Below, one piece after another: positions 1 through 8,198 of a DNA stretch of 9,663 nucleotides (within the stretch, counting starts at the first letter, position 1; every line of letters starts with the position of its first letter). A program made the translations under genes and the position numbers. The stretch lies in assembly GCA_027335515.1 (NCBI GenBank), contig DAHWHT010000255.1, forward strand, positions 1 through 9,663, in the 5' to 3' direction. The notes beneath the pieces are model-generated. The model saw only the letters and a program-made list of their open reading frames with translations. It did not search any database and was not told the origin of the DNA. The DNA comes from Clostridia bacterium (GTDB taxonomy: Bacteria > Bacillota_E > RBS10-35 > JAJYVN01).

Positions 1-460
1 CCGGAAACTCGGTCAGCAGGGCGTCCAATTGCAGCGAGAGGTGTTCGGCGTCAAACTCTCCCTCGTGGCGCCCGATCACCCCTCCGGAGGGGTCGATGAA
101 GACCAGCGTCGGCCAGGCGCGCACCGCATACGACTGCCAAATCGCATGGGTTCGCTCATTGGCCACGGGGTGGCGGATGTCCAGGCGCGCCACGGCGTCC
201 GCCAGGGCGGCGGTTTCCGCCTCCGCAGGGAACTTCGGCGAGTGGATCCCCAGGACGACGACGCGGCCCGCATAGCGCGATTCGATCTGCCGCAACTGCG
301 GCAGGACGTGGTGGCAGTTAATTCAACAGAAGGTCCAGAAGTCCAGCACAACCAGGCGGCCCCGCATATCCGCCAGTCTGGGCGGTGCCGCGGCGCCCAC
401 CCAGTCGGTGTCGGCTGGAAAGTCTGGGGCGCGCACCCGGCCCGTGAATCGTTCAGCCAT
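1..460 (-). CDS. NHLRC2-type thioredoxin-like protein with in-frame TGA (candidate selenoprotein), 3' end outside window
   Basis: Reading from the ATG at 460 toward the left edge gives a thioredoxin-like fold of 153 codons, interrupted once by TGA at 325-323 (codon 46). Before it stands VVLDFWTFC and after it INCHHVLPQL; the NHLRC2 family has FxTYCCINCxHxLP here, so the TGA replaces the N-terminal cysteine of the C-I-N-C redox motif. Downstream homology continues (LGIHSPKFPAE, AWPTLVFIDP with the cis-proline), so this is not a decayed tail. In this family the thioredoxin domain is normally followed by NHL beta-propeller repeats, which would lie beyond the window. Likely a thiol- or selenol-disulfide oxidoreductase; no signal peptide is visible. 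The start is fixed by GGGAGG (471-466), five bases upstream. It lies 63 bases downstream of the Y-polymerase-like gene on the same strand, probably cotranscribed. Alternatives are a nonsense mutation or TGA read as cysteine; selenocysteine fits best. Confidence 0.8.
287..304 (-). promoter_or_regulatory. Putative bacterial SECIS hairpin
   Basis: The mRNA downstream of the thioredoxin TGA (325-323) can form a perfect 7-bp stem, CUGCCGC paired with GCGGCAG, closed by the loop AGUU. The loop begins 25 nt after the TGA. Known bacterial SECIS elements have a short stem, a 3-14 nt loop with a G in its first two positions, and a loop 16-37 nt from the UGA; all three conditions are met. The call rests on pattern, not on a folding calculation or a covariation test. 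Confidence 0.6.
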
Positions 461-1863: not shown

Positions 1864-3084
1864 GTGGTGGGACGCGTGGGTGTGGTTCGGTTGAACACCG
1901 GTGAGGATCAAGCGCTGCGGGCCGGGCGCCCATGGGTGTATCGCAGCGAGATCGCGCGCCTGGAGGGCACGCCGACCACCGGCGACATCGTGGAGGTGCT
2001 CGACGAGCGCGGTTCGTTTGTGGCACGCGGCTTTTACCACGAGCGCAGCGTGCTTGCCATCCGCGTGCTCACCCGCCGCCGCGACGAAGTGGTCGACGCC
2101 GCGTTTTTTGCGCGGCGGATTCAGGCGGCCTGGGACCTGCGCCGGCGGTTGCTGGCGGATGCGACCGTCTGTCGGGTCGTGTTCTCGGAGGCGGACGGAT
2201 TGCCTGGGCTGATCGCGGACCGCCTGGGCGACGTCATCGTCGTGCAGGCGCTGGTGGCCGGCATGGACGAACGCCTGCCCGAGCTGGTGGATGCCCTGTC
2301 GCGGGCGACGGGTGTGGATGCGTTCTACGAGCGCAACGACGGAGCCGTACGACGCCTCGAAGGGTTGGAGGAGCGGGTCGGGGCGTTGCGCGGTCATCCC
2401 CCGGATCGGGTCTTGGTGGAGGAGGGCGGGGTGCGGCTGACGGTCGACCTGAGGCGGGGGCAAAAGACCGGCCACTTTCTGGATCAGCGGGAGAATCGAT
2501 CCGTTTTCGGCCGGATGGTGCGCTCGCTGCTCGTCGAAGGGGCGCCGGAGCCGGTGCGGGTACTGGACGCCTTCTGCCACACCGGTGGCTTTGCGTTGCA
2601 GGCGCTGGCGGCCGGCGCCGGCGAGGTGACCTTTCTGGACAGCTCTGCGACGGTGCTGGCGGCCGCGTTGGAAAACAGCCGCGCAAACGGTTGGGAGGAT
2701 TCCCGTGTCCGGCTGGAGGAAGCCAACGCCTTCGATGCCCTGCGGGCCCATGTCCGGGAGGGCCGGCGCTTCGATGCCGTGGTGGTCGATCCCCCGGCGT
2801 TTGCCCGCAGCCAGCGGCGGCTGGACGGTGCATACCGGGGCTACCGGGACCTCAACGTGCACGCGCTGCGGCTGTTGCGCCCCGGTGGTCTGCTGTGAAG
2901 TTGCAGTTGCTCCCAGCCGGTCACCGAGGAAATGTTCGAGCGCATGCTCTGTGACGCCGCCGTCGACACCGGCCGCCAGGTGCGGGTGCTGGAACGGCGG
3001 GGCGCGGCTCCGGATCATCCCGGACTGCTTGGGGCCGAGGAGACGCGTTACCTCAAGTGCTTCCTGCTGCAGGTCGTGGCCTGA
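1864..3084 (+). CDS. RlmI/COG1092-type 23S rRNA cytosine methyltransferase with in-frame TGA at 2896-2898
   Basis: An SAM-dependent RNA methyltransferase with an N-terminal PUA domain (about residues 5-75), a linker domain with GQKTGHFLDQR (199-209), SAM motif I LDAFCHTGGF (234-243) and catalytic motif IV VDPPAFA (308-314). In RlmI this architecture methylates a 23S rRNA cytosine at C5. The frame meets TGA as codon 345 right after PGGLL, then continues 61 codons with the expected family ending: SCSCS (346-350), VTEEMF, AAPDHPGLL, and YLKCFLLQV before TGA 3082-3084. E. coli RlmI has GGILLTFSCSG at the TGA site, so the recoded residue sits two before the first Cys of C-S-C-S, a hydrophobic or variable position. 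A hairpin lies just after the second stop, which supports the long product. Ending at 2898 would remove conserved motifs. Selenocysteine, a sequencing error or a nonsense mutation are all possible. The start is uncertain among GTGs at 1864, 1867 and 1876. Confidence 0.75.
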
Positions 3085-6612: not shown

Positions 6613-7092
6613 AATGCCGATGGGGCCCTGCGGGATCGCGCCGCCCGCCTTCGGCCCGCCGGTTCCACGGCGAGAGACCGGGTGTGGTTGGTGATGATCC
6701 TGACCGCATTCGGATCCGCATGGAGGGACCGGCCGCATGGTTGCAGCGGGATGCCCCCCCCGGTTCCCACGGCGTTCTCACTCCGCCTGCGGCGCGCGAA
6801 GGCCGCCGTCGGGGCGAGGGACCACGGGTGGCGGTGCCGCAGGCGTCTGCACGGGTGGCGACGGCTGGCCCCGGGCTCTCCAAGCCGAATGCCACAGTCC
6901 CCAGTGCGGCGCAGACGCGACGAAACTGCGGGGTGTACCTTGCGGTGGTGCCACGCCACGCCATCCCAGGCCGCGGCTGCTGCTTCGTCCACAGGCGCCC
7001 GCAGTATGATCGCCGACGCTACGTTTGCGCCAAGGGGAGGGAGGCGCGGTCCTGCCTGCGGTGGACACCCCGGGGGGACGCGCTGAGAGTGG
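6613..7092. other. 480-base spacer between Nif3-like and zinc-ribbon genes, no convincing gene
   Basis: Open frames exist here, but they give arginine- and proline-rich translations without recognisable motifs, as expected by chance in high-GC DNA. A minus-strand frame ending with TGA at 6780-6778 has a proline-rich tail (PAAPPPVVPRPDGG) and moderately coding-like third positions, but no start with a ribosome binding site, so it is not called. One weak hairpin is possible: CCCC-AGT (6899-6905) with ACT-GC-GGGG (6925-6933). No promoter or tRNA is evident. Confidence 0.4.
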
Positions 7093-7815
7093 ATGAACTG
7101 GCAGGCTGAGTTGCGCAAGCTGCTGCCGATTCAGGACCTTGATCGGGAAGTCGACGCCCTGGGCGATGAGCGGCGCCGGCTCCTGGGGGCGGCCCAGGAA
7201 ATGGTCCTGGAGCGCGAGCTGCACGCGCGCAAGGCGCGCGTGGCCCAACGCGAAGCGGAACTTGCCGCCACCGAACGCCAGCAGCGATTGGCCGAGTTGG
7301 AGCGCCAGTCCCAGGAGGTTGAGCGTGAGCGTTCCACGCGGCGGTTGTATGGGGGGGACGTGCGCTCTCCGCGCGACCTGGAAGGCCTTCAAAAGAACAT
7401 AGCCGGCAGCGAGACCCGCATCTCGGATCTGGAGACCGCCATCCTGGAGGCGATGGAACGGGCGGACCTCCTGCGCCAGAAGCTGCAAGCGGACCGCGCC
7501 GCCGTGGCCCAGGCGGCGGGCGCGCTGGAAAAGCACCGGCAGACGCGGCGCCAGCGCCTGGCCGTCGTGGATGGGCGTCTACCGCTATTGGTGGCGCAGC
7601 GGGCGTCCGCCGTGACCGCGGTGGAGACCGTGGTGCTGCGGGAGTATGAGCGCGTGCGGCGCGGCACGAACGACGGCGTCGGGGTGGCGCGGGCGGAATC
7701 CGGCCGCTGCACCGGTTGCCAGGTTGAGTTCGCGCCGCTGGTTCGCGAGCGGCTGCGCAACGCTGCGGAACGGGTCTCCTGTGAGCATTGCGGCAGGCTT
7801 TTGGTCTCCGAGTAG
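7093..7815 (+). CDS. C4-type zinc-ribbon coiled-coil protein (CT398-like)
   Basis: A 240-residue protein with a long charged helical hairpin (about residues 5-190, heptad-like E/R/A/L-rich coiled coil) and a C-terminal zinc ribbon with Cys206, Cys209, Cys230 and Cys233. The segment LYGGDVRSPRDLEGLQ (85-100) at the turn of the hairpin is the hallmark of this family, typified by chlamydial CT398. The fold suggests a nucleic-acid- or protein-binding adaptor; CT398 has been linked to sigma-54 and secretion components, but a general role is not settled. The family is often found beside Nif3 genes and next to rnpB, as here. The start ATG fits the family length; only a weak GAGAGTGG lies upstream. 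The TAG stop lies 38 bases before the RNase P RNA. Confidence 0.9.
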   Translation: MNWQAELRKLLPIQDLDREVDALGDERRRLLGAAQEMVLERELHARKARVAQREAELAATERQQRLAELERQSQEVERERSTRRLYGGDVRSPRDLEGLQKNIAGSETRISDLETAILEAMERADLLRQKLQADRAAVAQAAGALEKHRQTRRQRLAVVDGRLPLLVAQRASAVTAVETVVLREYERVRRGTNDGVGVARAESGRCTGCQVEFAPLVRERLRNAAERVSCEHCGRLLVSE

Positions 7816-7832
7816 CGGCGGGCCCGGTGCGA

Positions 7833-7841
7833 TGGTATCCT
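7833..7841 (+). promoter_or_regulatory. Extended -10 element for RNase P RNA
   Basis: TGGTATCCT carries a TG-N extension and a TATCCT hexamer. A start about seven bases downstream would fall near 7848-7850, just before the P1 helix of the RNase P RNA. No good -35 lies 17 bases upstream, which is common for extended -10 promoters. Confidence 0.4.
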
Positions 7842-7853
7842 GAAGCGGAATTG

Positions 7854-8191
7854 CGACCCGGTCAGGCGATCGCGGCCACCGATGGGTGGCTGAGGAAAGT
7901 CCGAACAGCGCAGGGCAGGGTGCCGGGTAACGCCCGGCGGGGGCGACCCCAGGGAAAGTGCAACAGAAATCAGACCGCCGGCCAGTGGCCGGTAAGGATG
8001 AAACGGTGCGGTAAGAGCGCACCGGCGGCCGGGTGACCGGTCGGCCAGGCAAACCCCACCCGCTGCAAGGCCAAATAGGGGAGGCATGAGGTGGCCCGCC
8101 GACCTCCCGGGTTGGCTGCTGGAGGCGCCGGGTGACCGGCGTTCGAGAGAAATGATCGCCCCTGACAGAATTCGGCTTACCGACCGGGTCG
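7854..8191 (+). ncRNA. rnpB: RNase P RNA, bacterial type A
   Basis: The catalytic RNA of RNase P, which trims 5' leaders of tRNA precursors with the protein RnpA. All conserved regions are readable in order: GAGGAAAGTCC (7892-7902), CAGGGCAGGGTGCC, AGTGCAACAGAAA, GGTAAGAGCGCACC, CTGCAAGGCCAAATAGG (8063-8079) and GACAGAATTCGGCTTAC (8164-8180). The terminal helix P1 is a perfect 10-bp pairing of 7854-7863 with 8182-8191, which sets the ends. The overall order and length match type A (the E. coli-like form), not the type B of Bacillus. Mature ends may differ by a few bases. Confidence 0.97.
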
Positions 8192-8198
8192 TAAGTAA

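Follow-up and report, generated by a model that had tools for sequence, protein, structure and literature searches.

The window analyzed here is a 9,663-nt stretch of DNA in which a minus-strand reading frame carries a TGA at the position where thioredoxin-like proteins of the NHLRC2 type have a presumed active-site cysteine. The question raised by this locus is whether the codon ends or damages a gene or is instead read as selenocysteine (Sec). The frame begins at an ATG (positions 458 to 460), with a Shine-Dalgarno-like GGGAGG (positions 466 to 471) 5 nt upstream, and contains exactly one in-frame stop, the TGA at positions 325 to 323 (context FWTFC-TGA-INCHHVLPQLR), after which 107 codons remain open up to the window edge. 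A bacterial-SECIS-like (bSECIS-like) hairpin follows at positions 287 to 304, in which a 7-bp stem (304 to 298 with 293 to 287) closes an AGUU loop (297 to 294); the TGA and the loop are separated by 25 nt. The preliminary description had reported a single FWTFC-TGA-INCHHVLP frame, a strong ribosome binding site before an ATG at position 460, more than 100 open codons after the TGA, and a 7-bp stem with an AGUU loop 25 nt downstream, and all of these were found as described. We read positions 2 to 460 (minus strand, as are all of these features) as the 5' part of a selenoprotein gene encoding an NHLRC2-type thioredoxin-like domain. Its 153 codons leave the window at the left edge before the NHL repeats, into which this copy presumably continues. 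The product has no signal-like start by eye and is probably cytosolic.

The identity of the interrupted residue was evident from homologous proteins. In the window gene, a domain scan detected Thioredoxin_8 (E 2e-12) and AhpC-TSA (E 1.6e-8). A motif of the FWTFCCINC kind was present in 117 of 122 proteins (i.e., the 120 matches listed plus two window translations), with FWTFCCINC in 58 and FWTFCCVNC in 39. The earlier statement that NHLRC2-type domains carry C-C-I-N-C here thus holds, and the TGA occupies the position of the second cysteine of CCINC, read here as Sec46 of a C-U-I-N-C motif. One of the 117 motif-bearing proteins, the database entry P0004, has arginine at the Sec/Cys position (FWTFCRINC). 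Cys49 (codon at positions 314 to 316), the presumed resolving residue of UxxC, is invariant across the six rows of alignment A1. Pro117 in W-P-T is likewise invariant in A1, and a cis geometry for it would follow only by analogy with NHLRC2 (PMC6107167).

The same TGA recurs in genomes related to the window. The best 80 loci from one scan of public genome contigs all had Cys at this codon (75 TGC and 5 TGT), the nearest being L001 in a "Bacillota bacterium" MAG (61%). When stops were read through in 61 genomes (that of L001 and its relatives), G005, G028, and G061 had one TGA each, in the same codon as the window, and G001 and G048 had Cys. The G005 orthologue is 82% identical to the window gene, and collinearity between G005 and the window extends across 6.5 kb (76% nucleotide identity) plus another 1.1 kb (82%), which marks G005 as a close relative that is probably congeneric with the window's organism. 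A collinear G005 stretch aligns over window positions 7085 to 8194, at the region of a bacterial RNase P RNA of class A (positions 7854 to 8195, plus strand; E 4.9e-97). Among 154 genomes of G005's class, 13 strong orthologues were counted (E 1e-120 or better, with weaker or partial rows left unclassified). Eleven of them have exactly one in-frame stop, in every case a TGA at the Sec46 codon, and the other two are stop-free with Cys. The preceding residue is Gly instead of Cys in 10 of 12 class genes. Across 398 genomes from the wider phylum, matches at E 1e-40 occurred in G005 and G061 only, so the gene looks restricted within that phylum.

The orthologue in G005 also provided the full architecture. 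It comprises 489 codons, and a Pfam scan placed a thioredoxin-like domain before NHL repeats. The public protein P0126 (427 aa), which has NHL repeats, agrees with the window's post-TGA stretch at 95 of 97 residues. The nearest solved structures by sequence for the G005 orthologue are SOQ1 of Arabidopsis (7djj; E 6e-97) and human NHLRC2 (6gc1; E 1.3e-83), and the 7djj alignment sets residue 46 on the second Cys of CCINC. These two proteins and the bacterial Cys orthologues likewise consist of a thioredoxin-like domain followed by NHL repeats, with a CCINC-type motif at the same place, whereas here the second Cys is encoded by TGA with a hairpin behind it. Unlike NHLRC2 and SOQ1, the 489-aa orthologue yielded no HAD domain in the Pfam scan and ends soon past the NHL repeats. 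The thioredoxin-like domain of DipZ (2hyx and 5cyy), a protein with a membrane link, matched at an E value of about 3e-21. It likewise has an xCINC motif (SCINC; PMC6107167) but carries Cys where the window gene has Sec, and the match spans residues 11 to 174 only, so it includes no NHL repeats.

A second group of TGA-containing genes was found in the phylum of the "Chloroflexi" MAG G539 (locus L004). Matches at E 1e-40 were obtained in 92 of 400 sampled genomes, and 76 rows qualified as strong orthologues (E 1.4e-136 or better). The rows left out as weak or partial included G871, G825, and G870, each with one TGA, two with a TAA (G905 and a second one from G636), and G711 and G679, which lack stops. 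Fifty-five of the strong rows had one TGA and 21 had no stop; a codon check on the DNA of all 76 placed the TGA at the site in 55 of 55 and Cys in 21 of 21, L238 being among the latter. In total, 170 DNA rows were resolved at the codon (the window, L001 to L080, L141 to L153, and L171 to L246, where L001/L141 and L004/L236 are the same genes). TGA was present in 67 of these, i.e., the window and 66 further genes, the rest had only Cys, and there was no TAA or TAG. On a quick tree (108 rows, 145 columns; L001 and L141 the same gene, L238 skipped), the Sec/Cys label needs eight changes, at least four of them forced by starred branches, and gain and loss of Sec are not separable because 145 columns are too few.

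The hairpin required more caution. Its AGUU loop and 25-nt spacing fall within published bSECIS limits (hairpin 16 to 37 nt past the UGA and G within the first two loop bases; PMC13188914). We applied these generic limits as a coarse scan of our own, which also passed 63 of 101 Cys homologues and 29 of 60 positions chosen at random on the plus strand of the window and failed 2 of the 67 TGA genes. In DNA this rich in GC the limits lack specificity and were therefore rejected as proof, and a hairpin is weak evidence on its own, since Cys genes and random places widely show one. An Rfam scan of the window detected no SECIS element; its sole match above the gathering score was the RNase P RNA. 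Taken by itself, the 22-nt hairpin has a folding energy of -14.1 kcal/mol, with none of 200 shuffles as good; the 71-nt piece around it is unremarkable (z -1.15; 28 of 200 shuffles as good).

It is the pattern across genomes that exceeds chance, in that other genomes repeat the TGA, the register, and the AGUU loop and show compensatory changes in the stem. Six or seven of the 7 bp plus the AGTT loop were present in 63 of the 67 TGA genes (12 of 12 for the window and its class and 51 of 55 in the second group), and the remaining four, all in the second group, have a CCCGC-GTT-GCGGG hairpin with the register shifted by one. Among Cys genes, 6 bp were reached by none of the best 80 loci of the first scan, neither of the two class genes, and 4 of the 20 scored in the second group (L238 excluded), so the hairpin is not strictly diagnostic. 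Those four (L227, L229, L230, and L231) have it at the SECIS place, perhaps as a remnant of a recent change from Sec to Cys.

Compensatory changes were evaluated on 41 TGA rows (34 distinct), namely the window, 11 class genes, and 29 of the 55 second-group genes. Paired bases filled 97.5% of cells (0 of 500 shuffles as high), two-sided changes occurred in four of the seven pairs (15 of 500 shuffles as high) and in 27 cells (0 of 500), and the covariation score was higher than every shuffle and every slid register, with the proviso that kinship among the rows can inflate such shuffle statistics. Within the window's class (12 sequences) the covariation was modest, with two two-sided pairs, a number that 32 of 500 shuffles reached. 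The encoded residues vary along with the stem (LPQLR, LAQLR, and LSQLG), which argues for a constraint on the RNA. An alignment of homologues at the codon and a covariation test on the hairpin had been suggested in the preliminary description as checks on the idea that the NHLRC2-type family has a Sec form in which the site reads UxxC, and both came out in favor of that proposal. In three ResA/TlpA-like genes (L088, L097, and L169, from genomes G039, G057, and G078), we observed FWGTT-TGA-PAC with a hairpin around CTGCAGTTGCAG; these are candidates for another thioredoxin-like selenoprotein with the same AGUU loop.

A search for the Sec machinery, which had also been proposed, was made in relatives, and for these the answer was positive. 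SelA, SelB, SelD, and the tRNA-Sec model were above the cutoff in all seven relatives' genomes, i.e., three with the TGA gene (G005, G028, and G061), two with Cys (G048 and G001), and two in which no NHLRC2-type orthologue was found (G039 and G057). Since specificity was lowest for the Rfam tRNA-Sec model, we relied on ARAGORN, which found a tRNA-Sec with anticodon TCA in all seven. Fourteen control genomes gave 1, 2, 2, and 5 results above the cutoff for SelA, SelB, SelD, and tRNA-Sec, respectively. SelA was also above the cutoff in all of another 24 genomes (18 carrying a TGA gene and 6 a Cys gene), so that it was present in 21 of 21 TGA genomes tested; SelB, SelD, and tRNA-Sec were present in 3 of 3. 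Only 6 of 16 genomes with Cys forms from the first scan had SelA. The best SelD match has one in-frame TGA of its own in all seven genomes (genes L117 to L124), and some of these genes show a hairpin with a three-base G-U loop past it.

Taken as a whole, it is very probable that the gene encodes a selenoprotein of NHLRC2/SOQ1 architecture (a thioredoxin-like domain and NHL repeats) in which UGA46 is decoded as Sec by SelB and tRNA-Sec by way of the AGUU-loop hairpin. The computational support consists of the repeated occurrence of the UGA, the hairpin with its covarying stem, the exchange of Cys and Sec, the Sec machinery found in relatives, and purifying selection before as well as after the codon. 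Insertion of Sec at codon 46 is itself a prediction from sequence, in which the hairpin 25 nt downstream would direct decoding of the UGA. Sec46 would then be the attacking residue and would form a selenenylsulfide with Cys49, and the substrate group, a disulfide or other oxidized group, would be bound in the interdomain cleft. The occurrence of Sec at exactly this Cys, the invariance of Cys49 in A1, and the replacement of the preceding Cys by Gly point to such a selenenylsulfide-forming redox center for a cleft-bound substrate. In NHLRC2, the CCINC motif sits in the cleft between the thioredoxin-like domain and a six-bladed propeller (PMC6107167). A redox function for Sec46 and Cys49 is thus suggested, and the missing insulin reductase activity of human NHLRC2 weighs against a plain thioredoxin role. 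The gene neighborhood was considered as a clue to the substrate and set aside, as the ORFs beside the gene in G005 and G061 look unrelated (glutamate synthase-like and pyruvate kinase-like by eye).

Alternatively, the main role of Sec insertion might lie not in catalysis but in making protein output depend on selenium, as a switch. Human NHLRC2 does not reduce insulin, for which reason its authors doubted a role in thiol-disulfide exchange (PMC6107167), and Cys forms are present in genomes that have SelA, both of which would suit a switch. We nevertheless regard this as unlikely, given that the residue is the N-terminal position of the thioredoxin active-site motif, that it alternates only with Cys in the DNA rows (the arginine of P0004 belongs to a database protein), and that its partner Cys49 does not vary in A1.

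A still less probable reading takes the TGA as a true stop, with the real product starting downstream as NHL repeats plus a thioredoxin remnant that lacks the active site. Database proteins might seem to fit it. Searches with the post-TGA part of the G005 gene returned at least 5,921 proteins at E 1e-60 or better, and those with the post-TGA part of a second-group gene returned at least 7,762 at 1e-100 or better. Among the 120 matches listed for the former, 115 were without the motif and started shortly past it, and 5 were full-length Cys forms; among the 110 newly listed for the latter, the corresponding numbers were 107 and 3. Names on the motif-less proteins among the matches listed include Thermomicrobiaceae, Nitrolancea sp., Chloroflexi, Dormibacteraeota, Limnocylindrales, Gemmataceae, and Candidatus Fervidibacter sacchari. 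With the G005 protein, every NCBIfam model stayed below its cutoff, and viral contigs yielded no relative. Gene callers, however, must start past an in-frame TGA, so a selenoprotein gene would give the same late starts; a TGA probably lies upstream of these motif-less proteins, and some of the starts may reflect contig ends. Moreover, the dN/dS value between the window and G005 is 0.134 for codons 1 to 45, before the TGA, and 0.144 for codons 47 to 153, after it, so that both parts behave as one protein. The ribosome binding site-like sequence before the ATG at position 460 and the Cys orthologues that span the site also speak against a downstream start.

There is next to no likelihood that the TGA is a nonsense mutation or a sequencing error in a decaying Cys gene. 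The window does contain a second in-frame TGA that may well be of that sort, at positions 2896 to 2898 (plus strand) in a gene for an RlmI-like 23S rRNA methyltransferase (GGLL-TGA-SCSCSQ). Past it, a further stretch matches the G005 orthologue, which has TGC (Cys) there. A loose scan found no bSECIS-like hairpin at this TGA, which makes nonsense, a sequencing error, or a shortened protein seem likelier than Sec. Decay of the NHLRC2-type gene, in contrast, is already contradicted by recurrence: the codon is common to 67 genes in two groups, TAA and TAG do not occur there in the resolved rows, the hairpin is nearly the same, and purifying selection is equal on both sides. A nonsense-decayed gene in related strains, named in the preliminary description as an observation that would speak against Sec, was not borne out. 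Genome-wide reassignment of TGA (e.g., to Trp) has nothing in its favor beyond the open frame and is equally implausible, since neighboring ORFs in the window end at TGA (glycosyltransferase, CAAX protease, NIF3, and Y-polymerase-like), Cys is the alternative to TGA in the DNA rows, and relatives have SelB and tRNA-Sec(UCA).

The protein is thus a UxxC selenoprotein with a thioredoxin fold in an architecture that we did not find described as a selenoprotein in the literature searched. A 2026 catalogue (PMC13188914) distinguishes 119 prokaryotic selenoprotein families or subfamilies, including Trx, Prx-like, thiol:disulfide interchange, redoxin, and several Trx-like UxxC proteins. The Sec-containing thioredoxin (UxxC) and the generic Trx-like, Prx-like, and redoxin UxxC selenoproteins of this catalogue likewise combine UxxC, a thioredoxin-like domain, and a UGA followed by a hairpin with G then U in the loop, but an NHL or NHLRC2 type is not named among its table rows, and "NHL" is absent from its main text. 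NHL was likewise not found in the main texts of PMC1088965, PMC2398784, PMC5029168, PMC12013277, PMC1794560, and PMC5330540, and a literature search that combined selenium-protein terms with NHLRC2, NHL, or taxon names returned no relevant title. Some members may lie unrecognized within broad classes, for example "Trx-like 1" of the ocean survey, and HEU0032618.1 ("redoxin family protein," UxxC) might be related.

These results suggest a widespread selenoprotein family whose database entries mostly lack the N-terminal part and, with it, the active site. The NHLRC2 family includes a human member associated with disease (FINCA) and the plant member SOQ1, and its chemistry is unsettled. Natural replacement of Cys by Sec singles out that residue as likely catalytic, and the bacterial enzymes are assayable. 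We consider it reasonably likely that selenoproteins of the NHLRC2 type make up a large family that has gone essentially unannotated, that this family is widespread in Chloroflexota-like and several other environmental lineages, with repeated exchange between Sec and Cys, and that the exchange identifies the second cysteine of CCINC as the residue responsible for redox activity throughout the NHLRC2/SOQ1 family, contrary to the published doubt that the human protein takes part in thiol-disulfide exchange.
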